Shown: positions 4,058 through 26,184 of the stretch, in pieces
Layout: every line of letters begins with the position of its first letter
Position numbering within the stretch: the stretch's first letter is position 1
From: a virus
Reading direction: 5' to 3' (one strand)
Length of the DNA stretch: 26,184 nucleotides
Virus record (IMG/VR): IMGVR_UViG_3300032893_000253
Location: 1-26,184 of that record
Notes under the pieces: model-generated
Seen by the model: the letters and a program-made list of their open reading frames with translations, nothing else
The model's database searches: none
What the model was told of the DNA's origin: nothing
Made by a program: the position numbers and the translations under genes

Positions 4058-4682
4058 TCGAGCTTGTGTATACTCGGTGTATATGCCAAATATTTCATCC
4101 AGTGTTGTGTCTGCTCAGAAAGAATGCGTGCAGAAATTTCTGCCCGATGGGTGGACTTTTACACAATACAGGACGATGAGAACCCACGCACAGGCACTAG
4201 ATGAGATTATTAAGTTGGATTCAGCCCCTATAGTAGTTTTTCTAGATATAGATTGTATCCCTCTTAGAGAAGAATCATTTCGATTTCTGGGAGAGAACGC
4301 ATCTCGAGGAATGCTAGCAGGAGGTGTTCAGAGAGCTAATCATAAATCTAACAACGCTCATCTGTATGTCGGTCCATTCTGTATGGCATTTGCAAAGGAA
4401 GATTACCTCCGTTACGGTTCGCCGTCATTTGAAGAAACAGCTAGAGGCGATATAGGCGAAGAAGTTTCGTACGCTTGGGAGGAGAATAACGCGCCGCTGT
4501 GTTTTATGTGGCCGTCTCAGGTAGATACGCCGTTATGGGATCTTCGCGATGAAGAGAAATTTGGTTTGGGTTCGACATACGATGGCTTATTTTTCCATTC
4601 ATTCTGTATTCGTGATGGAATGATGCATAACTACTTTATCAAGAAGTGTAAGTCAATTCTGGGAGAGAAGGTGAGTGTATGA
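4044..4682 (+). CDS. GT-A fold glycosyltransferase-like protein
   Basis: A 212-residue protein with a probable nucleotide-sugar metal site at APIVVFLDIDCIPL (DID 68-70). It is preceded by an RTHAQALDEIIKL helix, as expected before the DxD strand of a GT-A fold. Later stretches include YVGPFCMAFAKEDYLRYGSP, an acceptor-side motif seen in phage glycosyltransferases, and a His-containing LFFHSF near the end. A second ATG at 4050 is an equally good start. It overlaps the methyltransferase upstream and the tandem GT downstream (ATGA). It probably transfers a sugar to a phage component or host surface polymer. Donor and acceptor cannot be deduced. Confidence 0.62.
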   Translation: MSMSSRACVYSVYMPNISSSVVSAQKECVQKFLPDGWTFTQYRTMRTHAQALDEIIKLDSAPIVVFLDIDCIPLREESFRFLGENASRGMLAGGVQRANHKSNNAHLYVGPFCMAFAKEDYLRYGSPSFEETARGDIGEEVSYAWEENNAPLCFMWPSQVDTPLWDLRDEEKFGLGSTYDGLFFHSFCIRDGMMHNYFIKKCKSILGEKVSV

Positions 4683-6304
4683 CCACGCGACCTGTCACGC
4701 TGGTTGTCTTGTCGAAGTACAAGAGTGTACTGGCTCCGTTTATGGAGAGCCTAGCGAAACTCCAACCTCCGTTTGATGGAAAAGACGGAGTTGTTAAAAA
4801 TATTGTTTTTGTACTTGATGGAAACGATATTCCTGAAGAATACTGCGCGGGTCCTTTCTCTGTTATTGTTAAGGGACCGGAAAAGTTCTCGATGGCAGGA
4901 AACGGTAATTTAGGGTTAAAAGCTGTTCCTGCTGACAATGACGTTTTGTACTGTGGAGATGACGTCAGATTTTTAGAATACGATACCGTTGTCAAGCTGC
5001 AAGAAATAGCTTACAAGGACGAGACGTTAGGGATCCTGTCGCCACGGATTGTTGGGCGAGGCAGTCCTACACAGTGTAATCCAAGTGATGAGATAACGTT
5101 TTGCAGACCACTCGAAATGTGGTTTCCGTGTGTTTATATTAAGCGAGAGCTAATTAACAAGATCGGGTATTTAGATGAGAGATTCGAGAATTTTGGCAGT
5201 GATGATCTTGACTATTGCATTCGTGCTCTCCTTGCTGGTTATTCACTTGGTGTTACTAACAAAGTAGCTGTTCAGCATGAAGCAACGGATGGTGGACCGA
5301 CTACATTTGTTAAGAATATTGGTTTACAGGAATATAAGAAGCAAGAGAAAAACTCATTTGAGAAGATCATCGCGAAGTATAACGTTACGCCTGAGAATTT
5401 TGCGAAGTTTTTAACCGTAGGTGATCTCTCGCTTTTATCAAATCAACCTCCTGCGTTATCGTTAACTGAGCAGCAACAAAGGGAACAAGCTAAAGAGAAG
5501 CTCAAAACGAGAAGTTTGTATATTGCCACGCCTTGTTACGGCGGAATGATGACAGTGAACTATACAAACTCGTTAATCGCATTGATTAATCAATGTCAGA
5601 ACTTAGGGATTAGATATACAATTTCGTTTATCTACAACGAAAGCCTTATTACGCGTGCGCGCAATAAGATGGTTGATGATTTTCTGAGAAAAACAAATTA
5701 CACAGATTTTATCTTCATTGACGCTGACATAGGGTTTAGCGCTCAGGATATTCTATCGTTTTTGCTTTACGATGAGGGAGTAATTGGTGTTCCCTGCGTT
5801 AGGAAGAACTTGAGACTTGATCGTGTAGTTGAGGCCGTTAAGAAAAACGGCAGGTCATACACGATCGAAGAGCTTGAGCAGTTACTTGGGGAGTTTGTTA
5901 TCAACTTTCCTCCAAATGGGCAACCGGCGAAAATGGACTTGTGGCATTTAGCTGAGGTTCAGGACGTCGGTACTGGAATTATGCGAGTAAGGAGGGAAGT
6001 GTTTGAAAAAGTCCGGGAAGCTTTTCCTGACCGTTGGTACGCTCCGATGCTCGGTGAGGCAGATGCCGACCCAAACAAACCGATGTTCATGTTTTTCCAG
6101 TCCTGTATTGATAAAGATTCTGGACAGTATAATCCCAACGGACTCCCTCAATACATTCCTGAAGACTACGCATTCTGCCGGTTGTGCCGCCAAGTCGGAA
6201 TAAAGATATATGCAGCACCGTGGGTTGAAAGTTCACATGCCGGAACGTATATCTTCCGTGGAAGCTTGCCTGCAGTAGCAAAAGCAGGCGGTAAACTAAG
6301 ATGA
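4679..6304 (+). CDS. Tandem two-domain glycosyltransferase
   Basis: A 541-residue protein that looks like two GT-A domains fused. Domain 1 (about 1-210) has DVLYCGDDVRFL (GDD 93-95), GSDDLDYCIRALLAGY (about 173-188) and QHEATDGG with a candidate metal-binding His (H200), a GT2-like layout. A charged linker (about 210-275) contains EQQQREQAKEKLK. Domain 2 begins SLYIATPCYGG near 279 and has FIFIDADIGF (about 343-352), then PEDYAFCRLCRQVG (about 493) and a terminal HAGTYIFRG. A good Shine-Dalgarno AAGGTG lies 5 nt before ATG 4679, inside the previous gene. Both domains keep an acidic metal motif, so both may be active and could add two sugars in sequence. Confidence 0.77.
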   Translation: MTTRPVTLVVLSKYKSVLAPFMESLAKLQPPFDGKDGVVKNIVFVLDGNDIPEEYCAGPFSVIVKGPEKFSMAGNGNLGLKAVPADNDVLYCGDDVRFLEYDTVVKLQEIAYKDETLGILSPRIVGRGSPTQCNPSDEITFCRPLEMWFPCVYIKRELINKIGYLDERFENFGSDDLDYCIRALLAGYSLGVTNKVAVQHEATDGGPTTFVKNIGLQEYKKQEKNSFEKIIAKYNVTPENFAKFLTVGDLSLLSNQPPALSLTEQQQREQAKEKLKTRSLYIATPCYGGMMTVNYTNSLIALINQCQNLGIRYTISFIYNESLITRARNKMVDDFLRKTNYTDFIFIDADIGFSAQDILSFLLYDEGVIGVPCVRKNLRLDRVVEAVKKNGRSYTIEELEQLLGEFVINFPPNGQPAKMDLWHLAEVQDVGTGIMRVRREVFEKVREAFPDRWYAPMLGEADADPNKPMFMFFQSCIDKDSGQYNPNGLPQYIPEDYAFCRLCRQVGIKIYAAPWVESSHAGTYIFRGSLPAVAKAGGKLR

Positions 6305-6659: not shown

Positions 6660-8924
6660 ATGAAAAGACTAGTTGTACCCCTAATATTGCTTGCCAGTGT
6701 AGTTGCTTACGCTCAGACTTCTTCTGAGACTAAGTCAATTACAACGAGTGGAAATTCGGCTACGTTTCAGAACCCCAAATATGCTACAACGGTGGCTATC
6801 ACGATTTTCCCAAGTGGTAACCCTACATCCTATACTGTTACAACAATAGGGTGTTCAACCGGAGGAGCATCTTGCGGAGCTGTTGATAGCTACACAGGAT
6901 CTGGAAACACGCTTATTACTCGTTCTCCTTCTACTTCACAATATGCCTACTTCCAGATTAAAGCAGTATGGAGCGGAGGAACGAACGTTTCAATTCAGCT
7001 TACAGTTACGCTTACAGGAAACAACTCAACACAACCATCAACTCCTATTGGTTACATCAGCTTATTACTGAGTACAGGAGCGCCAACAGGAAGTTGTACA
7101 CAAAACCAGCGTGCGATGGACATATCCAGTTCACCTGGTGCTGAGTATAATTGTCCCAACGGAGCGTGGAACGCCATAACAGGCGGAGGCGGCGGTGGGG
7201 GACTAGCTGATCCTGGTTCAAACGGTATCGTTAAGCGCACAGCATTGAATATTACTGCTGTTGCAGCGGCTGCCGATATAACAGGGCTTTTTAGTGGGTG
7301 CTCAGGAACTCAGTATTTGGGTGCTGATGGAGGTTGTCATACTGCAGCCCCTGCAGCGAGTCCAAGTTTTTCCGGTACGGTTACTATGCCGGACGGCTCA
7401 ACGAATAACTCAAGTGGGTATTCGTTCGCGCATTCACTTAATCTCCCTTCCGGATCCCAGTTGAATGGCAACGCGTTTAATTTATTGGCTACGCTCAATC
7501 TGACAGGCGGTCCGGCATATGTGGGCATTGATGGTAGCAATGCTCCGACAATTATTGCAGCGCCTGCGGGTCCCACAACGATCGCAAATTGTTCTTCAGC
7601 GACCTGGGCTTCAGGAGCTTTTTATTTAGTAACTTCTGCTTCATCCTGTACACTGCCAGCAATCCCAAGCTCAACTAGTTGGTCTTCTGTTGTACAAAAT
7701 GGGAGTGGAGGAAGTGTTACAATAACTCCACCGGCAGGTGTTACAATCTATAGCGGAACAAGCACGTACTGTAGCACGTCCTGTACAGCAACGGCAATGA
7801 CATTAACATCGAATCAGCAGACTTTGTTTATTGCATCAGGTACAGCTTACTATGCGTCAGCTCCAGTAACAGTTCCGACAAGCGCAAGCTGGCCTAATGC
7901 TGGATCATGCTCTGCAAATCAGTTCGTGGACGCACTGACGAATGGGGCGACTCCAACATGCGCGGCGCTTACGGCGGCGACAGTTGGACTAGGTAATGTC
8001 ACGAATGACACACAGACGAAGGCCTCCGTTATGCCGAATACCGCTCCTGCTGCTGGGACAGTGCCGGTCGGCAACGGTTCATCTTACTCTGCACAGCAGC
8101 AGGGAGTTGTGGTAGATCCAAACGATGGCGCAACGAGTGTCACGATTCACGGAGACGGAGTAGGAAGCGATCGAAATGGCATTGTTTGGCTGAATAATGG
8201 TAGTAACGCTCAGGTCGCGTCGATTGCGAACCCTAATTCAACAGGGTTCGGAAATAACTATAGAACAACAGTGTGTAACGTTACTCCTCTTGTTTCTATT
8301 ATCTATAACAGCGGCACAAGTGGAACAATTAATGGCGTAGATAAAAACTATGCTATTCTGCCTGGATCAGTCTCAAATCCATATTGTGTTGATCTGGTCA
8401 TTGATCCAGTAAACACGACAACACAATGGGATGCCATTGTTAAGGGAGCAGCTTTTTACACGCACCACGTCCTGGCTGATGTAACGCCCGCCGGTACGGT
8501 TACAGTTGAGTCACTAGTTATTCCACAGAACGGTACATCTACTAGTGCTCCACCAATCTCTTTAGGATTTGATTGTCAGATTCCATGGAAGGGCAGCGGT
8601 TCGTCTCCTACTGTTACATTTTACGTGGATGATGTGGCAACAGAAAATCCTACGAACTTAGAAGCAACATCAATTACACAATCAACAAGCGGCACAGCAG
8701 TCGCAGGCGGTTCTATCGTTGATATAACGACTGCAACGTCTGCCGGTACAACAGCAATTGCGATTCCCGTTTGGACTGCGGGCAAGTATATGATTGCCAT
8801 TAGAGGTACTCTTGAGCTGGCAGCAAATACTCACGCATCTACATTAACATTTACTGCTATCGCATCAGCTGGAACTGTGTCTCTATACCGTGGTCAGTCT
8901 TGCCGCTATTGGGTGCTGCCGTGA
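6660..8924 (+). CDS. Large exported beta-rich, tail-fibre-like protein
   Basis: A 754-residue protein with a clear Sec signal peptide: MKRLVVPLILLASVVAYAQ, likely cleaved after AYA. Two short beta-rich repeats rich in Thr/Ser/Gly follow, then a poly-Gly hinge (seven Gly around residue 175-182) leading into LADPGSNGIVKR and a DITGLFSGCSG segment, sequences of the kind found in phage fibre shafts. GLGNVTNDTQTKASVMP (about 442) and a C-terminal beta-sandwich-like region (about 510-754) follow. Cysteines appear in pairs (CSTGGASCG, CSTSCTA), consistent with an exported oxidising environment. Virion fibres normally lack signal peptides, so this may be an envelope or secreted adhesin carried by the phage. 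It starts 3 bases after the previous stop. Confidence 0.75.
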   Translation: MKRLVVPLILLASVVAYAQTSSETKSITTSGNSATFQNPKYATTVAITIFPSGNPTSYTVTTIGCSTGGASCGAVDSYTGSGNTLITRSPSTSQYAYFQIKAVWSGGTNVSIQLTVTLTGNNSTQPSTPIGYISLLLSTGAPTGSCTQNQRAMDISSSPGAEYNCPNGAWNAITGGGGGGGLADPGSNGIVKRTALNITAVAAAADITGLFSGCSGTQYLGADGGCHTAAPAASPSFSGTVTMPDGSTNNSSGYSFAHSLNLPSGSQLNGNAFNLLATLNLTGGPAYVGIDGSNAPTIIAAPAGPTTIANCSSATWASGAFYLVTSASSCTLPAIPSSTSWSSVVQNGSGGSVTITPPAGVTIYSGTSTYCSTSCTATAMTLTSNQQTLFIASGTAYYASAPVTVPTSASWPNAGSCSANQFVDALTNGATPTCAALTAATVGLGNVTNDTQTKASVMPNTAPAAGTVPVGNGSSYSAQQQGVVVDPNDGATSVTIHGDGVGSDRNGIVWLNNGSNAQVASIANPNSTGFGNNYRTTVCNVTPLVSIIYNSGTSGTINGVDKNYAILPGSVSNPYCVDLVIDPVNTTTQWDAIVKGAAFYTHHVLADVTPAGTVTVESLVIPQNGTSTSAPPISLGFDCQIPWKGSGSSPTVTFYVDDVATENPTNLEATSITQSTSGTAVAGGSIVDITTATSAGTTAIAIPVWTAGKYMIAIRGTLELAANTHASTLTFTAIASAGTVSLYRGQSCRYWVLP

Positions 8925-8926
8925 GA

Positions 8927-10213
8927 ATGAAAACTCTGCTTATTGTTATATTGCTGGCAGGCAACGCTTGGGCAGCACTTCCATGCAACAACTCAACTGC
9001 CAACTGCACGACAGGCGTGTCATCTGTAACTTACAGCGGTCATACACGCTATTACGATGTTTTTGTTCCTCTTGGTATATCGACAGGTTATCCTGTATTC
9101 GTTTATCTGCCTGGAGCCGGTATTAGTTGCGGAGGTGTGGCTGCGGGATGTACGCCTTATACAACACCAACAGATGTAATGACAGGGCAGATGCAAGCTT
9201 TCGCGATCGCCAATCAAGTTATGCTGTTGGAACTTTTCTCGGCCTGTGTGGATAATACAGGTTCGAACGTTGCGCCCTTCTCCGTGTGTACGGCAGGGAC
9301 AGGAACAGGCAGTCTTCTAACTGCTCCGCAGTGGATCTGGCGCGCTGGAAATCTTAGTACATCATTCGGGTTTGATTGGGACGATTTCGGTTATATTAGC
9401 TCGATGATTAATACAGCAACGACAACCTGGAGCGGCGATGCCTCGCGCGTAACACTTATAGGATTGTCAACGGGCGGGATCATGGCCCAGCAGTACGCAG
9501 CAACGTTTAATTCAAATTCTCGTAAAGCCATTAACGGTCTTGGCATTTGGGCAGGGACCTCAGTTGTTGATATTTGCTTTAACGATTTCCAACTTGGTCA
9601 TGCGTATACGGTTGGTAACCAAATACTTCCTCAATCAGGAAATACAGCGCAAAACTACTTTCAAGCTGGTAACAACGGCACAAGCGGAACGGCGCCAAAC
9701 TGGAACACATGTAATCCAAACTGTGTTGATGGTGGAACGATTGTTTGGAACAATCAAGGTCCTGGTCTTGGAGCTGTTTGCTACAATGCGGAAGCTACTC
9801 CGCCAACGGTTGATACTACTCTCGGAATTCCAATTTTACTTTTGCAGGGCGATAAGGACACGACGCTTCCGTATTGTGGTAAGACAGGAACACAGCCATG
9901 GACTCAGTTTCCAGTTATGTCTACTGTTTCCGGAGACGTCGCATATTCGTACTGGTATTCAGGCATGGCTTGTACAACATCAAGTACAGGGACGAATGCG
10001 TGCACAGGTGAGGGAGGCACGGTTAATGCCAGTTTTTCAACAAAGCAAGCGACAGGGTGTCGCGGTAGCGGAACAGTCCTTCAAGTTGATTATGTAGGGC
10101 AGCAGCACACTCGTGTCGGGCCAGACAACGCAGGCATGTGCATACTTTGGAATCTTCTTTATCCATCAACACCATGCAAATTTGGCTATAGCACTCCAGT
10201 AGGGGGAATGTGA
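8927..10213 (+). CDS. Exported PHB-depolymerase/feruloyl-esterase-like alpha/beta hydrolase
   Basis: Numbered from ATG 8927 (428 residues; GTG 8921 overlapping the previous stop and TTG 8900 are alternatives, but the signal peptide is best from ATG). MKTLLIVILLAGNAWA is a signal peptide cleaved after AWA. The mature part follows the esterase-PHB/LpqC plan: a FVYLPGAG strand, WDDFGYISSMI, then RVTLIGLSTGG with nucleophile S181, IPILLLQGDKDTTLPY with D311, and QQHTRVG with H394. Residues about 220-280 insert a module (AYTVGNQIL...GGTIVWNNQGPG) resembling small carbohydrate-binding inserts of phage fibres and CBM5/12. Several Cys suggest disulfides. It likely hydrolyses an ester in a polymer outside the cytoplasm. 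The substrate is unknown. Confidence 0.82.
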   Translation: MKTLLIVILLAGNAWAALPCNNSTANCTTGVSSVTYSGHTRYYDVFVPLGISTGYPVFVYLPGAGISCGGVAAGCTPYTTPTDVMTGQMQAFAIANQVMLLELFSACVDNTGSNVAPFSVCTAGTGTGSLLTAPQWIWRAGNLSTSFGFDWDDFGYISSMINTATTTWSGDASRVTLIGLSTGGIMAQQYAATFNSNSRKAINGLGIWAGTSVVDICFNDFQLGHAYTVGNQILPQSGNTAQNYFQAGNNGTSGTAPNWNTCNPNCVDGGTIVWNNQGPGLGAVCYNAEATPPTVDTTLGIPILLLQGDKDTTLPYCGKTGTQPWTQFPVMSTVSGDVAYSYWYSGMACTTSSTGTNACTGEGGTVNASFSTKQATGCRGSGTVLQVDYVGQQHTRVGPDNAGMCILWNLLYPSTPCKFGYSTPVGGM

Positions 10214-12075
10214 ACTTCATAGTAAAAACAAAAACGACAGTGAGTATTGTTAGTCTGTTAGCAGGCGTGGCTATCAGTCAATGCCAAATACCCGGATATA
10301 GTTGTGCTCGTACAGATACAAATATTACGGCCAACCCTACAGGTGCACAGTTGGTTACATGGGCAGGCGGAGATACAGGGCAGGGAAGAGTCTGGTACGA
10401 TACTGGATTTAACTCGGTCCATCCGCCGAAGTACTTGCGACTGACAGACCGTTCTACATATACACAATGTGGCGGCACAGCTCGTCAAGGTTATGTTGTA
10501 CAGGGCGGTGGTGACGGAAACTGGCTTGTCTTTAACCGTACCGACACGATGATCTCGATTGGGGATTGCTTCTTCGCTGTAGATCCGGTGTCACTGTCGA
10601 TGCAATTCCTGATGCCGCAGCAATCGAATATGTGGGGCGGCACGAACGGAGGACAGTGGAGTATCGTTGATCCGAGTGTATGGTACGAACTCACACCGAG
10701 TACGTTAAATAAATGGACGCTTCTGGATAACAAAAACAATGCATGTCATGTCGGGAGTGTAGGGTGCACAGCGACTTTGAGTCAGCTCCGTAACTATGTA
10801 AATCATTGCGGAACACCCAATAACAACGGAAACGGTGTGTTCTCCTTATACGGTATTGGCGCTGCTGATGATAAGTTTGTCAGCTTATCGTCAACATCAG
10901 TACAAGATACTCCTCCGGCAATTGTTGTGTATCAGAAGTCTACAGGTGTATGTTACGTTTATAACACTTACTTCGGATCAATTCGAAGCTACCCACAAGC
11001 AACAACAACATTTACCGGTACACTAAGTTGTGACGGGAGTCGAAACTTAACTGCTACTTCAGGACAATTTTTAGATCCAAGCACGCCGGCTGATCCGTGG
11101 ACCGGACTAGGTATTACGGTAACAATTCCGAACGGTCCGAATGCAGGAACATACTACTGGTATCTGGGTGCGTCTACGACTTCGTCAACAGCGGTCGCGA
11201 AGACACTAACCAGTTCTCCTGTAGGAGTAGCTGATGCGTCATGCCCGGCAGGATCTGGGTACACCTGGTCAGTTCAGCCGGGAGTCTTGATGGGCTTGCC
11301 AACGACGTCAGATTTCTTTCAGGTACATAACGTACAGATTGATCCGAGCGGAACGTGGGCCGTAGCAAGTTATTCGGCCTGCCGCTTTTCGGGTTGTGGT
11401 CAGTTCTACGCATGGCAAATTGGAGGACTGACGGTTAAGAAGTTAACTAACTTTTCCGGTGGACACTGGACGTTGAACGCGAATGGAATCTTTAATCTCG
11501 ACCAGTATGATTCTGATGCGACGCTTTCGCTCTCAGTGTTGTTTCGGAATTGGGCAAACTTCGACCAAATTACTCTTTCAGGACCGTTCGGAGGAGTAGG
11601 AGTACAGAACGCTGGCAGTGGACTAGTTCATCTTCCTAATTTCCACAATATTTCAACCTCTATTGCTGATGGGCATCCGACTAATCATGATGACCCGACA
11701 GGACTACTCGGATATCCTGTTTTAGATTCAGTAGAGGGAAGTGAACAGTGTACTGGAATTGGAACATGTCCTATCAACGGGCCTTGGAGTAACGAGATCG
11801 TTGGTTACGACCAGACGAACGCGAATGTATACCGTTTTGGACATACCTATAATTCGCGCAACGAAAACTCTAGCACAAGCTTTGCAGCTTCGATTTCAGT
11901 AGGAGGAGCAGGGCAGACGGGACAGTTATATGCAGTAACTTCTGACGGTATGGGCAAATTTGATTCGCTTTGTACATATGCGGTCCCATGGACTTGCGCA
12001 TCTGATGTGCTCATAGTGCAACTAGGAGTTAGCGCATTAAACGCTCCGCTTCTACTGCGACTCTCAATTAATTAG
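10210..12075 (+). CDS. Exported beta-structure protein of unknown function
   Basis: A 621-residue protein starting at GTG 10210, overlapping the esterase stop (GTGA), with AGGGGG just upstream. The N-terminus (VKTKTTVSIVSLLAGVAIS) is a signal peptide without a proper lipobox. The mature part is rich in Gly, Thr, Ser, Trp and paired Cys. Stretches such as VQIDPSGTWAVASY and GGHWTLNANGIFNLDQYDSDA look like propeller blades, and GTYYWYLGAS looks like an Ig-type strand. No catalytic motif is clear. Tight coupling to the esterase suggests the two are exported together, perhaps as binding and cleaving partners. The propeller idea is a weak inference. Confidence 0.68.
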   Translation: MNFIVKTKTTVSIVSLLAGVAISQCQIPGYSCARTDTNITANPTGAQLVTWAGGDTGQGRVWYDTGFNSVHPPKYLRLTDRSTYTQCGGTARQGYVVQGGGDGNWLVFNRTDTMISIGDCFFAVDPVSLSMQFLMPQQSNMWGGTNGGQWSIVDPSVWYELTPSTLNKWTLLDNKNNACHVGSVGCTATLSQLRNYVNHCGTPNNNGNGVFSLYGIGAADDKFVSLSSTSVQDTPPAIVVYQKSTGVCYVYNTYFGSIRSYPQATTTFTGTLSCDGSRNLTATSGQFLDPSTPADPWTGLGITVTIPNGPNAGTYYWYLGASTTSSTAVAKTLTSSPVGVADASCPAGSGYTWSVQPGVLMGLPTTSDFFQVHNVQIDPSGTWAVASYSACRFSGCGQFYAWQIGGLTVKKLTNFSGGHWTLNANGIFNLDQYDSDATLSLSVLFRNWANFDQITLSGPFGGVGVQNAGSGLVHLPNFHNISTSIADGHPTNHDDPTGLLGYPVLDSVEGSEQCTGIGTCPINGPWSNEIVGYDQTNANVYRFGHTYNSRNENSSTSFAASISVGGAGQTGQLYAVTSDGMGKFDSLCTYAVPWTCASDVLIVQLGVSALNAPLLLRLSIN

Positions 12076-12207: not shown

Positions 12208-13845
12208 ATGCCTAGTGGAAATTTGGTTGTACGAAATCTAGCACCATTAGTTGCGGCGATGAACGGGGCGCGAAGTGCTCTTTACCGTCCTCCGCAAACT
12301 ACTATTACAGGGATTGACGAGTCGTTGTGGCCCAATCCTTTACAACCTGTTACGCCCATGGGTCCGCCACGAGCGGAGCCTTTGGGTTGGCCTTTTGATT
12401 GGGGCCGCAACCTTATCTTTACACCGCGTGACGACGCGGAATACTCAGCATCACAACTTCGTCAACTTGCGACATATCCTTTGGCTAGAATCTGTATTGA
12501 AAATACAAAGGATATGATTTCGAGAATGCCATATAGAATTCAGCTTAAGCCTCTCCCTGGCGAAACAAGTAAGGCGCGAGCTGATAGAAGTAAGAATGAT
12601 AAGCAATTGGGCTGGTTAAACGATTTCTTTTCTCGTCCTAACAGGCAGCAGAATTGGCAAGAGTTTTTACGCCCTGTTTTAGATGACATGCTCGTAATTG
12701 ATGCTGCTTCGATTTTTATCGGGCGAGATAAGAAAGGTAAAGTTCAAGAACTACGGTGGATAGAAGGAGCGTCGATTACTTGTTTGGTTGATGAGCATGG
12801 CTGGCGTCCAGCTCCGCCAAATCCTGCTTATCAGCAGCTATGGCAAGGTTACCCTAGAATTGACCTTACTACAGATCAGTTGATTTATGCTCCCCGTAAC
12901 ATAGTTCCCCGTAATACTCAGGCTTCTTACCTTTACGGGATGTCACCGGTTGAGCAGATAGCAAAAGAGATTAAGATTGGTGCAGCCAGACTACAGTTCA
13001 TTTACGATTTCTACAGAGAAGGATCAATTCCTGGAATGATTCACTTTGTGCCTCCGAATGTTTCAGTAGAAAAGATTAAAGAGGCGCAACAGTATTTAGA
13101 TTCTGCATATGCAGGAAACTTGCCAGCACGTCGTAGATTGCAGTTAATTCAAGGTTGGCATGAGGCGGGACAAGGCAACGAGCAGACAATTATTCCTAAA
13201 GAACCAGCACTTGCTGATGCGTATGATGAATTGCATACGCGCCGTATCTGTTTTGCATTTGGGACAAGTCCGCAACGGTTAATGCGTCAGATGAACAGAG
13301 CGTCTGCTCAAGTTGCTCAATTATCGGCTGAAGAAGAAGGCACACTTCCATGGATGGAGTGGTTGAAGAGCGTTATAGATAATATTATTCAAAACGTTCT
13401 CGGGATGAAGGAATATGAGTTTGCGTTCGATCCTTATCACGAGATGGATCGGATGAAACAGTCACAGGCTGACGAGAAAGATGTTGATAATGGTATTTAC
13501 ACACGTAATGAAGTTAGAGAACGGCGTGGAGATGATCCTCGACCTGAACCTTTAGCTGATACGCTGTCGGTTAAAACAGCGCAAGGTGTTGTGCCGCTAG
13601 GTCAGATCCTGCAACCAACAGCGGCTGTTGCATCAGGTAGTTCAAGCGGAACGATAAAACGTCCAACAATTACTTCTAGCCCCGGCGGCGGATCTGTCGG
13701 GAAATCAAAGACTAACGGGCATACAACACATGCTACATGTGCTAAGCATAAGGATAGTTATCCAAGAGCTTTCTGCGCAGATTGCTCAGCCATTGAAGCT
13801 ATACACTACGCGGCTCAGCAGGAAGCTTTAACGGAAAGATATTGA
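12208..13845 (+). CDS. Portal protein (HK97/SPP1-type) with C-terminal zinc knuckle
   Basis: The dodecameric DNA gate at the head vertex, 545 residues. Recognisable portal features are the ARICIENTKDMISRMPYR helix (about 94-112), the SIFIGRDKKGKV hairpin (about 168-180), the TTDQLIYAPRN and YGMSPVEQIAKEI segments (about 230-262), and the C-terminal IYTRNEVRERRGDDP (about 430-445), the classic portal stem/crown motif. A Gly/Ser-rich linker then leads to an unusual tail, CAKH (511-514) and CADC (523-526), a Cys-x2-His-x8-Cys-x2-Cys pattern. The next gene, MuF-like, begins with the same kind of motif. Portal overlaps it by one base. There is no strong Shine-Dalgarno for ATG 12208. Confidence 0.88.
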   Translation: MPSGNLVVRNLAPLVAAMNGARSALYRPPQTTITGIDESLWPNPLQPVTPMGPPRAEPLGWPFDWGRNLIFTPRDDAEYSASQLRQLATYPLARICIENTKDMISRMPYRIQLKPLPGETSKARADRSKNDKQLGWLNDFFSRPNRQQNWQEFLRPVLDDMLVIDAASIFIGRDKKGKVQELRWIEGASITCLVDEHGWRPAPPNPAYQQLWQGYPRIDLTTDQLIYAPRNIVPRNTQASYLYGMSPVEQIAKEIKIGAARLQFIYDFYREGSIPGMIHFVPPNVSVEKIKEAQQYLDSAYAGNLPARRRLQLIQGWHEAGQGNEQTIIPKEPALADAYDELHTRRICFAFGTSPQRLMRQMNRASAQVAQLSAEEEGTLPWMEWLKSVIDNIIQNVLGMKEYEFAFDPYHEMDRMKQSQADEKDVDNGIYTRNEVRERRGDDPRPEPLADTLSVKTAQGVVPLGQILQPTAAVASGSSSGTIKRPTITSSPGGGSVGKSKTNGHTTHATCAKHKDSYPRAFCADCSAIEAIHYAAQQEALTERY

Positions 13846-18399: not shown

Positions 18400-20364
18400 A
18401 TGAAGATTAACCAGGAAAATTACGTCCAGAGAGTGCTAATCGGACGTGAAGCCGTCGCAAAGGCGTTGAATCAGGATAGCATTAAAGACCTGTGCAAACG
18501 CACGCGTGAATTAAGTCCTTCAGCCACCGATCCGTCTAAGCGTTGGTCGTTGGACCATCCTCTTGTGAAAGCGACAAGCCGAGCGCTGTTGAAGGCTCAG
18601 TACGAAGCGATCCAAGAGCTGCAAAAAACAAATCCTCCCGGAATGGGAACTTGGCTTGGTTTTAACTTCTACGATCTTCGTGGACCGGCATACTTCCTGT
18701 TCCCATTGCTTACGCCATTTATTCAGATGATTCCGAAAAAAGGGAAAGTCAACGCTGGCGTAGGTACAGTGGCACACTGGAAGGCAACCCGCAACCCGAA
18801 CTCGACATATATTTATGCCGGTGTTCAGGAAGGGCAGCGCAACGCAACAGCCACGCCGAATGAAATTGACTACCTTGCGACGTACAAGGAACTCGGCATG
18901 GAAGGTGGAAACACGTTCACGTCACAGTGGGCTGGTGAAGGCTACACTGATAACCTGGCAGACGAACATTTCCGTAACCTTGCTCGCCTTCGCTTGCAAG
19001 AGGAAATGATCACACTGTTGGGCAACTCAGGTACTGGAACCGGCAACCTGGGCTTTACACTCGGAACGCCAAGCAATATCACAACATCGTTGCTGACGTC
19101 TGACACGTTCAATACACCAGCAACGAGTGGTTTTGCGGCTAACACGAACGTCGCATTTTGCGTTGTCGCAATTACCGGTATGGGCATGAATCCTGGCGGG
19201 CAGGGCGGTTACAACGCTCCTCCAACAGTTGCTTCAGGCTTGACCGCAACATCAACACGTACTAACGTTGACGGAACAACATTGCAGGTTAACGGCGGAA
19301 CGTCAATCGTTTCGAACGTAACATCTGTTGTTGCGACGAACTCCACAGCGAAATGGGTACAGTTGACCGTACCTGCAATTGCTGGTGCTGTTGGATATGC
19401 GTGGTACGTAAGTGCTACAAACGCTACATCAGCCACGACTGCTGCTCAGTGTAACTTAGCTGCAATTACACCGTGGCCGAAGGCTGTTATCGGCGGCGCT
19501 CCGGCCGGCACAACCAATGCTGGTGCATTTACAACCGACTACAGCTATCAGACAACAGACTTTGATGGTCTGTTGACCTATGCGTTCAAGAATGGTTATT
19601 GGAACGACATGGGCGCTGGCTCGTTTACTCCTGTGGGTAATGGCCAGATTGCTGAAATCGAAACAGACTTGCAGTATCTGTGGAACAACTACCAGGCGCA
19701 ACCGGACGCAATTTGGTGCTCATCCGACGTGCGTGCTGAGTTGGATCAGGCAGTACTGTACAGTTCGACAGGAACCAATAGCTACATCTTCCAGTATACT
19801 CGTGACAGTCAGGGAGCAATCCTTGGCGGTAACATGGTAACTGCTTACAAATCGAAGTACTCGATCAGCCCTGAGGGCGGAGCTGCTATTCCGATTCGTT
19901 TGCACCCAATGTTGCCTCAGGGCACGATGTACTACGACATCAATACGAACCCATACCCGCATAGCCGTATTCCTGCGGTGCGTGAGTTCATGACACAACG
20001 CGATTACTATGCGATTGAATGGCCGATCGTAACTCGTGAATGGACGTACGGTACGTATATTCACGAAGTACTCGCGCACTATATGCCGTGGGTAAGCGCT
20101 GTGCGTACTGGTATTGGGAAGTTTGTTGCTCCGTGCTTCATCGCTGCGGTCGTATTCGACGAAGACTTTACGACTGGTCCTCGCGTAAACATCGTCCGCA
20201 ACTACTTGCTGGATTGGGAGAAGAAGTCCGGTCTTGGCAAGATTGTTGTTGGCTTGTACAGAATGCATGGAGAAGCTGTTGCCGAAATCACGAAGAAGAA
20301 TGCCACGCTGAAGAAGTTCTTCACGAAGGTATTCAACTACGCGCTGAAGAAAGCACAGCAGTAA
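18400..20364 (+). CDS. Major capsid protein, HK97-type, with a large Ig-like insertion
   Basis: A 654-residue protein; most HK97-type capsid proteins have 300-400. The N-terminal part includes FYDLRGPAYFLFPLLTPF, a conserved-looking NATATPNEIDYLATYKELG, and NLARLRLQEEMITLLGN. Residues about 215-370 are Gly/Thr/Ser/Ala-rich and end in VQLTVPAIAGAVGYAWYVSA, an Ig/FN3-like strand pattern, suggesting a surface domain inserted in the capsid fold. After it, PDAIWCSSDVRAELDQAVLY is the hallmark C-terminal MCP segment, followed by a P-domain-like strand (YYAIEWPIVTREWTYGTY) and a basic helix. Codons appear richer in C-ending triplets than in neighbours, as in highly expressed genes. The position after protease and scaffold agrees. 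Confidence 0.84.
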   Translation: MKINQENYVQRVLIGREAVAKALNQDSIKDLCKRTRELSPSATDPSKRWSLDHPLVKATSRALLKAQYEAIQELQKTNPPGMGTWLGFNFYDLRGPAYFLFPLLTPFIQMIPKKGKVNAGVGTVAHWKATRNPNSTYIYAGVQEGQRNATATPNEIDYLATYKELGMEGGNTFTSQWAGEGYTDNLADEHFRNLARLRLQEEMITLLGNSGTGTGNLGFTLGTPSNITTSLLTSDTFNTPATSGFAANTNVAFCVVAITGMGMNPGGQGGYNAPPTVASGLTATSTRTNVDGTTLQVNGGTSIVSNVTSVVATNSTAKWVQLTVPAIAGAVGYAWYVSATNATSATTAAQCNLAAITPWPKAVIGGAPAGTTNAGAFTTDYSYQTTDFDGLLTYAFKNGYWNDMGAGSFTPVGNGQIAEIETDLQYLWNNYQAQPDAIWCSSDVRAELDQAVLYSSTGTNSYIFQYTRDSQGAILGGNMVTAYKSKYSISPEGGAAIPIRLHPMLPQGTMYYDINTNPYPHSRIPAVREFMTQRDYYAIEWPIVTREWTYGTYIHEVLAHYMPWVSAVRTGIGKFVAPCFIAAVVFDEDFTTGPRVNIVRNYLLDWEKKSGLGKIVVGLYRMHGEAVAEITKKNATLKKFFTKVFNYALKKAQQ

Positions 20365-20376
20365 AACAACAAGCTA

Positions 20377-20393
20377 CTGCTCTCCCAGAGCAG
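20377..20393 (+). other. Short perfect hairpin after MCP
   Basis: CTGCTCT (20377-20383) and AGAGCAG (20387-20393) form a 7-bp stem with a CCC loop, 13 bases after the MCP stop. No T-run follows. It may be a 3'-end stabiliser or part of a weak terminator. Confidence 0.5.
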
Positions 20394-20405
20394 CTAGATC
20401 TGCAA

Positions 20406-20459
20406 GGGGCGGACGGAACGTGTCTTTGACAGGAGGCGTTCGCTGCACAAATCCGCCCC
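20406..20459 (+). promoter_or_regulatory. Nested stem with an internal AGGAGG before the fibre gene
   Basis: GGGGCGGA (20406-20413)/TCCGCCCC (20452-20459) is a perfect 8-bp outer stem; GAACG (20416-20420)/CGTTC (20437-20441) is an inner stem. A perfect Shine-Dalgarno AGGAGG (20431-20436) lies in the loop, 41 nt upstream of the fibre ATG, too far for normal use. TTGACA (20426-20431) is present without a clear -10. The fibre's own ATG has only a weak upstream signal, so this structure may control its translation or MCP/fibre ratio. Confidence 0.48.
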
Positions 20460-20477
20460 AAGCAGAAAAAGAGCCCG

Positions 20478-23400
20478 ATGCCAACAACGACTCCGTACCT
20501 ATCACTCACCTTACCTGATCGCGGACAGGTAAACTGGGACGGATACGTCAATGGCGATCTAACAATCCTTGACGCTTCTGTTGCTGCTTTATCTTCCTCA
20601 CTAGGGTCCTCCACCCAACTTGCTCGCGTAGTTTCCCTGAATAGTTCAACCGGCGCTGTTGTTCTCACAGCCGGGAATAACATTACTCTTAGCCAAAACG
20701 CCTCTACAATTTCAATTAACGCTGCCAGCCAGTCTATTCAAACAGACAACATGGTTAGCGTGAATAGTTCTACCGGCAATATTATTCTTGTCGGTGGAAA
20801 TAACATCACGCTTAGCCAAAATGCCTCGACAATCACTTTTATCGGGCAGACGCAATCCATACAAACTCAATCGACGGCAGCGATCAACGGTTCGACCGGA
20901 CTGATATCACTACTTGGCGGAAGTAATGTTACACTAAGTCAAAATGCATCGACTATTACAATTGTTGCGGCTGGACAGACTGTACAGACACAATCTACAG
21001 CGGCTATCAATGGTAGTACCGGTAATATTAGCCTTATTGCTGGCAATAACATTTCACTTAGTCAGAACGCTTCATCAATTACGATCAGTGCTTCTAACCA
21101 ATCGGTTCAGACACAGAACGTAGTAGATGTATCACTAAGTGGAAATACTACTGGTACATTAGCGCTCATCTCGTCTGGTACGATGATTTTGGCTGGTGGT
21201 AATAATATTACACTCAGTCAAAACGGGCAGTCAGTAACAATTGTAGGGAATGCGGGCGGAGGCGGGAATTTCACGGCTGGTGTAAGTGGAGGAAATACAT
21301 CCGGTACATCCGGAACTGTTAATAGTGAGTTTATCTTAGCTGGTGGCAATAACATTACTCTTAGTGCCGGAACTGCTGCAGGCGGAGTAATGTCTGTAAC
21401 TATTTCCGGTGCTAATCAGTCCATTCAAACCCAATCGACTGTAGCAGTTAATGGTTCTACAGGTAATATTAGTTTTGTAGCTGGCGCGAATATTAGTTTA
21501 AGTCAAAATGCTTCCACAATTACGATTAGCGGAAGCAATCCACCTGCACAAACCGTACAGACCATTGGTGTTTATGCTTCTAGCCAAACTGTTGGGCAAA
21601 GTAGTAGTAGCACGGTAGATGCTCGTTCATTTACTCATGTTGGACAGGGTATTGTAAGTGTTGGATTAAGTGGTGGAAGTTTACTAATCTCAGCTACAAC
21701 TGCTGCCCAATCAGTTCAACCCATAGGGACAGGCACATTTGGAATCAGTAATCTAGGTAATACGTCCGGAACGACAGGTGTAATTTCCGGCACAAGTCCG
21801 CAGTTAATCTTAGCTGGCGGAAACAACGTTACACTCAGTCAAAGCATAAACGGTTCATCGGCTACAATTACAGTATCAGCCGCAAATCAATCTGTTCAAA
21901 CCCAGAACCTTGTTGATGTAAGTTTATCAGGTAATACGGCCGGAGCATTAGCCCTTATTTCGTCCGGAACTCTTATCCTGGCCGGCGGTAATAATGTCAC
22001 ACTCAGTCAGAATGGGCAATCTGTAACAATCAGCGGTGTCAACACTATTGCCCAAACAAATCAGACTCTCGGTCTTTATGGGTCAAGTCAGACTGTAGGA
22101 CAAAGTTCTTCTACTACAGCAGACGCTCGATCGCTAACGTTAGTTGGACAAGGCGCGTTGTCAGTTGGTATGAGTGGTGGCAGCGTGCTGTTATCTGTAC
22201 AACCTGGAGCGCAATCAAATCAAACTGTAGGATTGTATGCGTCAAGTCAGACTGTTGGGCAAAGTAGCAGTAGTACCGCTGACGCTAGATCAATTTCAAT
22301 TGCCGGTCAGGGAATTGTAAGTGTCGGACTTAGTGGCGGATCGTTCTTAATTTCAGCTACAACTGCTCAATCTGTACAGACACAAAACTTACATGTAGAT
22401 GTAATCGCAGGCAATACTGCAGGCGCCACCGCAAGCATATCGTCAGGTACGATGACGTTGGCTGGCGGAAATAATATTACGTTGTCTCAAAACGGCAACG
22501 CGATTACTATTTCTGCTGCTAACACAGTTGCTCAGACTGTTCAATCACTTGGTATTTACGCTTCAAGTCAGACGGTCGGTCAATCATCGTCCACAACACT
22601 TGATGCAAGAAGCGTTTCAATTGTAGGGCAGGGGATTATCTCTGTAGGCGCTTCTGGCGGGTCGATACTTCTCTCCGCAACAACCGCTGCGCAGACAAAC
22701 CAGACTTTGTCGTTTGCTTTGACAGGCAATACGACAGGTAATACGTCTGGTATGAGCGTAGACGCTCGCTCGTTAACAATCCAAGGTACAGGGATTGCAT
22801 CGGTTGGATTAAGTACCTCAGCCGGTGGAAGCACATTAATCGTTTCTGCTACACAATCCGTTCAAACACAAAATCTTGTATCTGTTAACGGGTCTGTAGG
22901 AGCGCTTTCAATCAGTGGTGGAAATAACATCACTGTTGGAAATAACGCTTCCACGATTACTATTTCTGCTAACAATGAAATGCCTGTAGGTATTTCTAAT
23001 ATTGGAAATACTTTAGGTAGTTCAGGATTAATGACAGGTCAACTTGTATTGGCTGGTGGAAATAATATTACACTAAGCCAGTCAACTGTTGCTGGACAGT
23101 CAGCTACACTTACAATTAGTGCTGCGGCCCAATCAAACCAAACTGTTGGAGTTTATGCAAGTTCGCAAACTGTAGGACAAAGTTCTTCCACTACAGTTGA
23201 TGCTAGATCACTCAGTTTAGTTGGGCAAGGTATTGTTAGTGTTGGAGCTTCAGGTGGAAGCATTCTAATCTCTGCTTCTGCTGCTCAGACCAACCAAACT
23301 GTTGGAATTTATGCTTCAAGTCAAACCGTAGGTCAGAGTAGCAGTAGTACAATAGATGCGAGATCGTTTACGCATGTAGGGCAAGGTATTGTTTCGGTTG

Positions 23401-26184
23401 GAATGAGTGGTGGTAGTTTGCTAATCTCTGCTACTACTGCTCAATCTGTTCAAACTCAGAATTTGCATGTAGATGTAATTGGAGGAAATACAGCCGGAGC
23501 GACAGCAAGTATTTCATCAGGTACGATGACACTTGCTGGTGGTAATAACATCACGCTTAGTCAGGCTGGCAATGCAATTACAATTAGCGGTGCAAATACT
23601 GTAGCTCAGACAAACCAGACACTATCATGGGCTGTAACAGGTAATACAAACGGAAATACATCAGGCCTAAGTGTAGACGCACGCTCTCTAACTTTACAGG
23701 GAGCAGGAATTGTTACTGCCGGATTAAGCACTTCGGCTGGTGGAAGTTCGATTATTATCTCCGCTACAACGGCGGCCCAGACTAACCAAACGGTTGGTAT
23801 TTATGCTTCATCACAGACTGTAGGGCAGAGTTCATCCACAACGGTAGACGCCAGAAGCTTGTCCTTAGTTGGGCAAGGTATTGTTTCAGTCGGTGCTTCG
23901 GCAGGGTCAGTTCTACTCTCAGCTACACAATCCGTTCAAACACTTGGGTTGTATGGAGTATCAAATACAACAGGTGCTACATCCTCAACAACAGTAGATG
24001 CTCGATCATTCTCAATTGCAGGGCAAGGTATTGTTTCGGTTGGAATGTCGAACGGCAGTGTCGTTATTTCTGCCGGTGCTGTTGGTGGCGGATCATTTAG
24101 TGCTGGCGTTTCAACAGGTGGAAACACATCAGGCAATACTGCAATCGTTGCTAGCCAGTTAGTATTAGCTGGCGGCAATAACATTACACTAAGTCAAAGT
24201 GTAAACGGTAACTCTGCTACTGTTACAGTCAGCGCGTTTAATCAATCTGTACAAACACTCGGTTTCTATGCGTCAAGTCAAACAGTAGGACAGAGCAGTA
24301 GTAGTACAGTAGATGCCCGTTCTGTAACAGTTGTAGGCCAAGGTATCATCTCGGCTGGGTTGAGTGCTGGATCGCTACTGCTTTCTGCTACAACGGTTCA
24401 GACAAATCAAACCCTCTCGTTGGCTATGACAGGTAATACTGCAGGCAATTCGTCTGCAGTAACAGTTGATGCGCGTAGCTTAACATTACAGGGTCTTGGT
24501 ATAGCGTCAGTAGGTGTAAGTACCTCAGCCGGTGGAACCTCTGTTCTCGTTTCTGCTTCACAAACCGTACAGACACAAAACTTACATGTAGATGTAATTG
24601 CAGGAAACACTGCCGGAGCAACTGCTTCTATTAGTTCCGGTACGATGACACTGGCTGGCGGAAACAACATTACATTAAGTCAAGCCGGAAATGCAATTAC
24701 TATTTCAGGGCCAAATACTGCAGCCCAGAGCGTACAGTCACTTGGATTTTATGCTTCAAGTCAAACCGTAGGGCAGAGTTCTTCTACAACAGTTGATGCA
24801 AGAAGTGTTACGCTTGTTGGACAAGGTATTGTTAGTGTCGGTGCTTCAGGCGGATCGTTACTGATCTCAGCAACAACGGCTCAGTCCGTTCAGACGCAAA
24901 ATGTTGTTGACGTAAGTTTATCAGGTAATACGGCTGGTGCACTAGCTCTGGTTAGTTCCGGAACTGTAATCTTTGCTGGCGGAAACAATATCACACTTAG
25001 CCAGAATGCCCAGTCAATTACAATTTCCGGCGCTAATACAGTTGCTCAAACAAACCAAACTTTATCACTTGCAATGACAGGCAACACTACCGGAAATACT
25101 TCCGGTATGACTGTTGATGCAAGATCATTAACGATCCAAGGTTTAGGTTTGGCTTCTGTTGGACTAAGCACTTCAGCTGGCGGTAGTTCGTTAATTGTAT
25201 CTGCCACATCAGCAGCTCAAACAAATCAGACGGTTGGAATTTATGCTTCAAGCCAGACAGTAGGACAATCAAGCTCAACTACAGTAGATGCTCGGTCGCT
25301 GACATTAGTTGGACAAGGTATTGTTTCAGTTGGTGCTTCTGCAGGGTCTGTTTTAATCTCTGCCTCTGCTGCTCAAACAGTACAGACTCAAGGTTTCTCA
25401 AACACCTTGGGAATGTCTAACCTTGGTAATACAAGTGGTACGACAGGAGCAGTAAGCGGAACAGGGCTGCAACTATTCTTTGCCGGTGGAAACAATGTTA
25501 CCCTAAGTCAAAGTCTAAATGGGTCTTCCGGTACGATTACGATTAGTGCAGCTAATCAGACGAACCAATCACTCTCATATGCAGTAACAGGTAATACGAC
25601 AGGTAATACGTCTGGTTTGTCTGTAGATGCCCGTTCGTTGACATTACAAGGGCTTGGAATTATTTCGGCAGGACTAAGTACATCCGCCGGCGGCTCGTCG
25701 ATAATCATTTCTGCTACTACACCTTCTCAAACTGCTCAAACAGTTGGTGTTTACGCTTCAAGTCAAACAGTTGGGCAGAGTTCAAGTTCGACAGTAGACG
25801 CAAGATCATTTACTCACGTTGGACAAGGAATTGTAAGTGTAGGGTTAAGTGGTGGTAGCCTTCTCATATCAGCTACTCAGTCAGTACAAACGCAAAATGT
25901 TGTAGATGTATCGTTAAGCGGAAACACGGCCGGAGCATTAGCCCTTATTAGTAGCGGCACAATGATTCTGGCCGGCGGCAATAATATTACACTCAGTCAA
26001 AACGGGCAGTCAGTAACAATTAGTGGCGTTAATACAGTTGCTCAAACAAACCAAACAATAGGAATCTATGGATCGAGCCAGACGGTCGGCCAGAGTTCTT
26101 CATCAACCGTGGATGCACGGTCGCTCTCGTTGGTTGGTCAGGGTATTGTGTCGGTTGGTATGTCGGGAGGATCTGTACTGCTCT
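20478..26184 (+). CDS. Giant repetitive tail-fibre-like protein (3' end outside window)
   Basis: One open frame runs from ATG 20478 to the right edge, about 1,902 codons without a stop. The N-terminus MPTTTPYLSLTLPDRGQVNW then DGYVNGDLTILDA resembles the virion-attachment adaptor of phage fibres. From about residue 50 the protein is made of beta-rich repeats using mostly G, S, T, N, Q, A, V, I, L. I see no Lys or Cys anywhere, and Arg only in the adaptor and in the recurrent DARS. Core units are AGGNNITLSQ followed by TITIS (18 copies) and YASSQTVGQSSS followed by VDARS (13 copies). A long beta-solenoid or shaft is likely. Receptor-binding tip and chaperone lie beyond the window. It could alternatively be a surface adhesin. 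Confidence 0.83.
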   Translation, partial: MPTTTPYLSLTLPDRGQVNWDGYVNGDLTILDASVAALSSSLGSSTQLARVVSLNSSTGAVVLTAGNNITLSQNASTISINAASQSIQTDNMVSVNSSTGNIILVGGNNITLSQNASTITFIGQTQSIQTQSTAAINGSTGLISLLGGSNVTLSQNASTITIVAAGQTVQTQSTAAINGSTGNISLIAGNNISLSQNASSITISASNQSVQTQNVVDVSLSGNTTGTLALISSGTMILAGGNNITLSQNGQSVTIVGNAGGGGNFTAGVSGGNTSGTSGTVNSEFILAGGNNITLSAGTAAGGVMSVTISGANQSIQTQSTVAVNGSTGNISFVAGANISLSQNASTITISGSNPPAQTVQTIGVYASSQTVGQSSSSTVDARSFTHVGQGIVSVGLSGGSLLISATTAAQSVQPIGTGTFGISNLGNTSGTTGVISGTSPQLILAGGNNVTLSQSINGSSATITVSAANQSVQTQNLVDVSLSGNTAGALALISSGTLILAGGNNVTLSQNGQSVTISGVNTIAQTNQTLGLYGSSQTVGQSSSTTADARSLTLVGQGALSVGMSGGSVLLSVQPGAQSNQTVGLYASSQTVGQSSSSTADARSISIAGQGIVSVGLSGGSFLISATTAQSVQTQNLHVDVIAGNTAGATASISSGTMTLAGGNNITLSQNGNAITISAANTVAQTVQSLGIYASSQTVGQSSSTTLDARSVSIVGQGIISVGASGGSILLSATTAAQTNQTLSFALTGNTTGNTSGMSVDARSLTIQGTGIASVGLSTSAGGSTLIVSATQSVQTQNLVSVNGSVGALSISGGNNITVGNNASTITISANNEMPVGISNIGNTLGSSGLMTGQLVLAGGNNITLSQSTVAGQSATLTISAAAQSNQTVGVYASSQTVGQSSSTTVDARSLSLVGQGIVSVGASGGSILISASAAQTNQTVGIYASSQTVGQSSSSTIDARSFTHVGQGIVSVGMSGGSLLISATTAQSVQTQNLHVDVIGGNTAGATASISSGTMTLAGGNNITLSQAGNAITISGANTVAQTNQTLSWAVTGNTNGNTSGLSVDARSLTLQGAGIVTAGLSTSAGGSSIIISATTAAQTNQTVGIYASSQTVGQSSSTTVDARSLSLVGQGIVSVGASAGSVLLSATQSVQTLGLYGVSNTTGATSSTTVDARSFSIAGQGIVSVGMSNGSVVISAGAVGGGSFSAGVSTGGNTSGNTAIVASQLVLAGGNNITLSQSVNGNSATVTVSAFNQSVQTLGFYASSQTVGQSSSSTVDARSVTVVGQGIISAGLSAGSLLLSATTVQTNQTLSLAMTGNTAGNSSAVTVDARSLTLQGLGIASVGVSTSAGGTSVLVSASQTVQTQNLHVDVIAGNTAGATASISSGTMTLAGGNNITLSQAGNAITISGPNTAAQSVQSLGFYASSQTVGQSSSTTVDARSVTLVGQGIVSVGASGGSLLISATTAQSVQTQNVVDVSLSGNTAGALALVSSGTVIFAGGNNITLSQNAQSITISGANTVAQTNQTLSLAMTGNTTGNTSGMTVDARSLTIQGLGLASVGLSTSAGGSSLIVSATSAAQTNQTVGIYASSQTVGQSSSTTVDARSLTLVGQGIVSVGASAGSVLISASAAQTVQTQGFSNTLGMSNLGNTSGTTGAVSGTGLQLFFAGGNNVTLSQSLNGSSGTITISAANQTNQSLSYAVTGNTTGNTSGLSVDARSLTLQGLGIISAGLSTSAGGSSIIISATTPSQTAQTVGVYASSQTVGQSSSSTVDARSFTHVGQGIVSVGLSGGSLLISATQSVQTQNVVDVSLSGNTAGALALISSGTMILAGGNNITLSQNGQSVTISGVNTVAQTNQTIGIYGSSQTVGQSSSSTVDARSLSLVGQGIVSVGMSGGSVLL
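20628..21120 (+). repeat. Four 123-nt (41-codon) in-frame tandem units
   Basis: The first Asn codon, or its equivalent, of each GNNITLSQ-type core falls at 20676, 20799, 20922 and 21045, exactly 123 nt apart. The units read VNSSTGNIILVGGNN, then ITLSQNASTITI, with a linker ending QSIQTQ. Silent changes are frequent between copies, so the protein period is kept while the DNA has drifted. Confidence 0.85.
21201..21242 (+). repeat. 42-nt exact repeat, second copy at 25980-26021
   Basis: Bases 21201-21242 and 25980-26021 are identical over 42 nt, encoding NNITLSQNGQSVTI. A homologous module near 21990 encodes nearly the same residues but with several silent changes. The flanks of the two exact copies differ. 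Such identity over 4.7 kb within otherwise drifted repeats suggests recent duplication or gene conversion. Confidence 0.8.
21573..26184 (+). repeat. Shuffled ~52-residue modules, 13 copies of the YASSQTVGQSSS type
   Basis: The Tyr codon of this module starts at 21573, 22077, 22236, 22557, 23154, 23310, 23802, 23952 (variant YGVSNTTGATSS), 24267, 24750, 25242, 25752 and 26067. Gaps of 150-159, 315-321, 483-510 and 597 nt are close to one, two, three and four units of about 156 nt. Between them lie other modules: TGNTTGNTSG followed by VDARSLT (five copies, near 22707, 23624, 24410, 25064, 25570), LHVDVIAGNTAGA (three), VVDVSLSGNTAGALAL (several) and SNLGNTSGTTG. Each ends in a short beta-strand plus AQTNQT or QSVQTQ linker. 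Confidence 0.82.

Follow-up and report, generated by a model that had tools for sequence, protein, structure and literature searches.

Long virion fibres of the adenovirus type are built as a triple beta-spiral, i.e., a long uncharged shaft of short beta repeats, with a beta-sandwich knob at its end. Among phage proteins, the central fibre gp20 of mycobacteriophage Douge (PDB 8zdp) is a trimeric virion fibre and the first to touch the host (PMC13033339). It is a part of a siphophage tail tip, its own shaft is different and multi-domain, and its likeness to the tip domain analyzed in this work is one of fold alone. ORF25 of Anabaena phage A-4L (AGR48552), which was recognized as chain Z of the PDB entry 9jwb by a full-length sequence match, is a 202-aa stand-alone protein without a repeat shaft. 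Chain Z is listed under the A-4L capsid asymmetric unit, and the ORF25 gene stands among tail genes. Finally, the complete circular podovirus ctKR88 (MW202524, Manatee Spring) encodes a 598-aa "hypothetical protein" (UOF78257.1), in which GGNNITLSQ-type modules are combined with the tip described below (profile E-value 8e-16). Its gene is localized between the capsid gene and the tail genes, with glycosyltransferase (GT) and methyltransferase genes nearby.

The DNA analyzed here (the window) is the whole IMG/VR record IMGVR_UViG_3300032893_000253, a linear fragment of 26,184 bp, the end of which is occupied by a giant modular fibre gene (20,478–26,183, plus strand). The gene starts with ATG and covers 1,902 codons with the 3′ end open, as it runs off the contig. 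This corroborates the initial annotation, made from the sequence alone, which reported an ORF of about 1,902 stop-less codons, open past the window and built almost only of G, S, T, N, Q, A, V, I, and L (93% of the residues). The absence of Lys and Cys over the whole length was also confirmed by counting (K 0, C 0, E 2, R 20, D 30, W 2); the window's other proteins contain on average 4.7% K and 2.0% C, and aromatic residues are scarce in the fibre alongside Cys and Glu. The trypsin-resistant shaft that had been deduced from this composition is, in turn, an unsafe sequence-based claim, given the presence of 20 Arg, which sit mostly in a conserved DARS motif.

The non-repetitive N-terminus (20,478–20,625, plus strand; MPTTTPYLSLTLPDRGQVNWDGYVNGDLTILDASVAALSSSLGSS) is a putative virion-docking segment, as judged from its position only. 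The adaptor search suggested by the initial annotation, performed with the first 54 aa as a query, found no relatives in IMG/VR or in the phage collection. Downstream, there are four modules of about 41 aa (20,626–21,098, plus strand; type D, ..NGSTGxIxLxxGxNITLSQNASTITI, DNA family D4), followed by a mosaic of about 50–57-aa modules of types A, B, C, and E (21,099–26,183, plus strand). The respective patterns are SSQTVGQSSSxTVDARSxxxVGQGIVSVGxSGGSxLISA for type A (about 52 aa), SSGTxxLAGGNNITLSQxGxxITISG for type B (about 55 aa), TGNTxGNTSGxxVDARSLTxQGxGIxSxGLSTSAGGSSxIxSA for type C (about 57 aa), and GNTSGTxG..LAGGNNITLSQ for type E. A recurrent Q[TS]xQ motif splits the fibre into 33 segments, three of them double-length, which corresponds to about 36 modules in a non-periodic order (the four 41-aa modules, then the A/B/C/E mix). 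With about 41–57 aa, the repeat differs from the adenovirus-type one (about 15 aa), and the Pfam Adeno_shaft model gave no match to the window shaft at E-values up to 5, i.e., the shaft was not recognized as a triple beta-spiral.

The comparison of paralogous modules of types A (n = 12, the last one cut by the contig end), B (n = 6), and C (n = 5) revealed protein identities of up to 96% with DNA identities of only 60–77%, and the synonymous sites between modules proved saturated (mean pS 0.67–0.71, pN/pS 0.13–0.30). Near-identical module proteins combined with saturated synonymous sites point to strong long-term selection on each repeat. The repeats are genuine and selected at the protein level, and the pattern of substitutions shows a translated and constrained reading frame. 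The longest exact repeat within the fibre gene is 42 nt and the terminal bases of the contig are found elsewhere over only 9 nt, which, together with the synonymous saturation, excludes the assembly collapse of repeats that the initial annotation had named as a possible origin of the ORF. Codon scrambling against inter-repeat recombination was also considered and rejected, because the codon identity of paralogues lay slightly above the codon-shuffle expectation (z 1.5–5.8), not below it; the excess of shared codons between modules is residual ancestry.

Following another suggestion of the initial annotation, consecutive modules were modelled as a monomer with AF2 (residues 885–1150). One beta-hairpin was predicted in each of five consecutive modules, but the model is a low-confidence one (pLDDT 52, pTM 0.19). 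None of the Pfam, PHROG, and NCBIfam models describes the shaft or the tip, no named shaft family was matched in these databases or in the PDB by sequence, and the PDB sequence searches with tip and shaft queries gave no match beyond chance. Weak Pfam/NCBIfam hits (DUF1582, MaoC, arcadin) were below the cut-offs and were taken as low-complexity chance matches. Searches of bacterial genomes with the modules were also negative.

The fibre gene begins 113 nt past a major capsid protein-type gene (18,400–20,364, plus strand; phrog_13692), which was designated based on position and conservation. Further upstream, the window encodes TerS, TerL, a DNA methyltransferase, a phrog_1574/glycosyltransferase-like protein (4,679–6,304, plus strand), three secreted-looking proteins, the portal protein (12,208–13,845, plus strand; phrog_2662, PF04860), a head-morphogenesis protein, a head protease, and a His/Ala-rich scaffold-like protein. 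With the portal gene, the locus can be assigned firmly to a phage head module, and the fibre sits in a block of phage structural genes, as expected of a phage adhesion fibre. Seven contigs with a related capsid protein (60–81% identity) keep the gene order of the window over the stretches compared. Two of the capsid-sharing contigs (180 and 176 kb) contain tape-measure-like ORFs that are devoid of Cys and encode 2,767 aa and at least 1,877 aa, respectively, from which a large phage with a long tail appears probable for the window as well. The window fibre found no match in the capsid-sharing phages, in which other, shorter proteins follow the capsid gene (some of them signal-peptide-like), and thus belongs to the accessory genes of a variable post-capsid region.

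Two other features of this region should be mentioned. The capsid–fibre gap (20,365–20,477, plus strand) is structured, with two strong RNA hairpins (−47.5 kcal/mol, z = −3.8) that match no Rfam family. The post-capsid gaps of loci L009, L010, and L011 are also strongly folded, with a loop motif (GACAGGRG) resembling that of the window, yet the next gene differs. Moreover, three consecutive genes within positions 6,660–12,075 start with apparent Sec signal peptides; their products are a 754-aa fibre-like protein, an esterase-like protein of about 430 aa with a GLSTGG box, and a 621-aa protein, and none of them has a counterpart in the related phage stretches compared.

A search of IMG/VR with a 161-aa composite of modules as a query revealed 43 loci, none of which shares the capsid or portal genes of the window (at blastp sensitivity, within the stretches compared). 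The relatives and the window fibre form one family by module homology, with 29–50% identity across long stretches and up to 86% locally. Closed relatives span 364–1,900 aa, and the presence of proteins of 1,603, 1,674, 1,836, and 1,900 aa among them shows that the length of the window protein is not exceptional, as had been supposed. Their N-termini vary (SELP..PIARGG and RPSDWNSxH types, some collagen-like), and the shaft and the tip persist. Of the 31 closed relatives, 30 have a C-terminal domain in common (the tip), which is about 200 aa long. A profile of this domain matched 37 fibre proteins from 35 loci, including some not used in building it, the second fibres of some loci (L056, L057), and UOF78257.1 of ctKR88, and it matched no other genes of the fibre loci. 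The ctKR88 fibre is about one third as long as the window fibre and differs in its phage backbone and N-terminus. The architecture of closed relatives is therefore the one predicted by the initial annotation for a giant repetitive fibre, i.e., a modular shaft between an N-terminal segment and a tip, the latter lying outside the window. Within the window, the tip profile gave no match because the contig ends; the protein, which stops at residue 1,902, appears to be a fibre cut short of its tip, and we infer that its full-length form should exceed 2,100 aa.

In some phages, the tip family is represented by two fibre genes, e.g., in contig IMGVR_UViG_3300047496_000053 (L053/L060 and L064), and in L056 and L057 the two genes are adjacent. 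In another locus (L036:4532-6151), a 540-aa protein encoded beside the fibre gene shows a weak match, just below the cut-off (E-value 2e-5), to Gp38 (PF05268), the T-even-type phage tail fibre adhesin. Overall, the family has no name in the databases searched and occurs in dozens of environmental phages, and the window ORF appears to be a real, large, accessory phage fibre of this widespread family.

The fold of the tip was predicted with AF2 for the closed relative of 1,900 aa, L020, using 30 sequences (pLDDT 78.7, pTM 0.77), and the model is all-beta (a β-sandwich). In the Foldseek search against PDB, the best match was chain Z of 9jwb, i.e., A-4L ORF25 (E-value 1.9e-4, probability 1.00, TM-score 0.46), followed by the Douge central fibre 8zdp (E-value 2e-3), and minor tail proteins and fibre-like proteins of phages were numerous among the BFVD matches. 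The fold likeness to ORF25 is significant, concerns the tip of L020 and not the window itself, and is accompanied by a modest TM-score; at the sequence level, the tip profile finds no homology between them.

Taken together, the window ORF very likely encodes a phage virion adhesion fibre. In the proposed mechanism, the short N-terminal segment would dock the fibre onto the particle, at least 36 degenerate modules of about 41–57 aa with one beta-hairpin each would form a long stiff shaft, presumably homotrimeric (the hairpins come from the low-confidence monomer model only), and the C-terminal β-sandwich tip of about 200 aa would bind the host surface, as its fold and its presence in nearly all closed relatives suggest. 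This reading follows from the location of the gene behind the capsid gene at the end of the TerS-TerL-portal-head morphogenesis-protease-capsid order, the conservation of module proteins despite synonymous saturation, the occurrence of the family in 43 loci, the fibre-specific tip profile, the tip fold matches, the predicted hairpin per module, and the variation of N-termini beside the persistent shaft and tip. Against it stand the tip missing from the window, the shaft without a named match and with a low-confidence model, the modest tip TM-scores, and the capsid-cluster phages without the fibre at the same place. That the ORF is instead an artefact, i.e., repeat collapse or expansion, or a wrong frame, is hardly conceivable: the contig does terminate inside repeats, as contigs often do, but the modules are too divergent in DNA, with a strong synonymous excess, and the same architecture is found, closed, in independent contigs and in one complete circular genome. 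The attachment site is a matter of closer balance. A head fibre anchored in the capsid, which would decorate it and act as a tether between the virion and either cells or an extracellular polymer, could take the place of a tail fibre, a point not raised by the initial annotation, and we give it somewhat less than an even chance. It would fit the gene directly behind the capsid gene, the PHROG-matched genes upstream of the relatives' fibres, where capsid and portal families recur most (five PHROG families of major head proteins, with about 11 members, plus portals, whereas tail genes are almost absent), and the best tip-fold match, which belongs to a capsid asymmetric unit as one of its chains. 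However, the second-best match is a tail-tip central fibre, many BFVD matches are minor tail proteins, and the ORF25 gene itself lies among tail genes, so gene order alone is not decisive.

The composition and the neighbouring genes allow further interpretations. In 29 relatives (30,767 residues), Lys and Cys constitute 0.34% and 0.09%, respectively, whereas the remaining genes of these loci reach 5.45% and 1.0%, so their scarcity is not peculiar to the window protein, as had been assumed. The family shaft rate predicts about 5 Lys and 1 Cys per 1,902 residues, and the zero counts are at the low end of the family range, yet inside it. Avoidance of lysine as a counter-defence, leaving no attachment point for host lysine-directed conjugation or proteolysis, could be read from the K/(K+R) ratio (0.23 in the fibres, compared with 0.49 for the remaining genes of their loci and 0.40 for G/S/T-rich proteins other than these) and from the window fibre and L020, which both lack Lys entirely over about 1,900 residues (L020 is also devoid of Cys). 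We consider it very improbable, because Glu is reduced as well (E/(D+E) of 0.30 versus 0.50), and so are Cys and, in the window protein, aromatics, which suggests the composition of a structural beta-fibre; moreover, many relatives retain 1–20 Lys. Scarce Lys, Glu, Cys, and aromatic residues are a signature of the shaft family, best explained by a tightly packed uncharged beta-fibre rather than by a trait selected in the window protein alone. More room is left for a glycosylated fibre, in which the S/T/N-rich shaft would be the substrate of a neighbouring GT (and a sugar methyltransferase) and would display a glycan brush, a reading we hold as doubtful. One GT family (identified by profile) was found no more than 6 kb downstream of the fibre gene in 19 of the 35 tip-bearing loci, 22 of which have at least 6 kb of downstream sequence; the GT gene was adjacent (within about 400 bp) in 11 loci and upstream in only one, and a methyltransferase family was present downstream in 16 of the 35. 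The tally of downstream genes comprised phrog_1574 (12), methyltransferase (10), GT (5), and nucleotide-sugar epimerase (2); phrog_1574, the most frequent of them, is also encoded by the window phage. In ctKR88, the fibre gene is followed by a methyltransferase gene and then by a gene annotated as "has synthase". On the other hand, phage GTs can modify host surface glycans or DNA instead, the GT assignment is weak (Glycos_transf_2, E-value 1e-3, under the Pfam cut-off), adjacency does not equal modification, and the window stops before any fibre-downstream gene. In several loci (L018, L017, L032, and others), the start of the GT-family gene overlaps the fibre stop by 4 bp, which suggests translational coupling.

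The recurrent linkage of the fibre with downstream GT genes is new here, goes beyond the initial annotation like the accompanying methyltransferase genes, and, being asymmetric and maintained across phage backbones, suggests a functional unit. Whether this unit is a mobile cassette spread across unrelated phages, composed of a swappable dock, a charge-poor shaft, a β-sandwich tip, and a GT (often with a methyltransferase) that glycosylates the shaft, is a tentative idea, which we regard as rather unlikely as a whole; if true, such a cassette would give the virion a long sugar-coated tether. The module profile, the tip profile, and the linked genes make a definable family out of large proteins without a functional name in the searched databases, and through this family, fibres of environmental phages that are uncultured can be related to virion parts already known. 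Its linkage with GT genes poses the question of whether phages glycosylate their own adhesion fibres.
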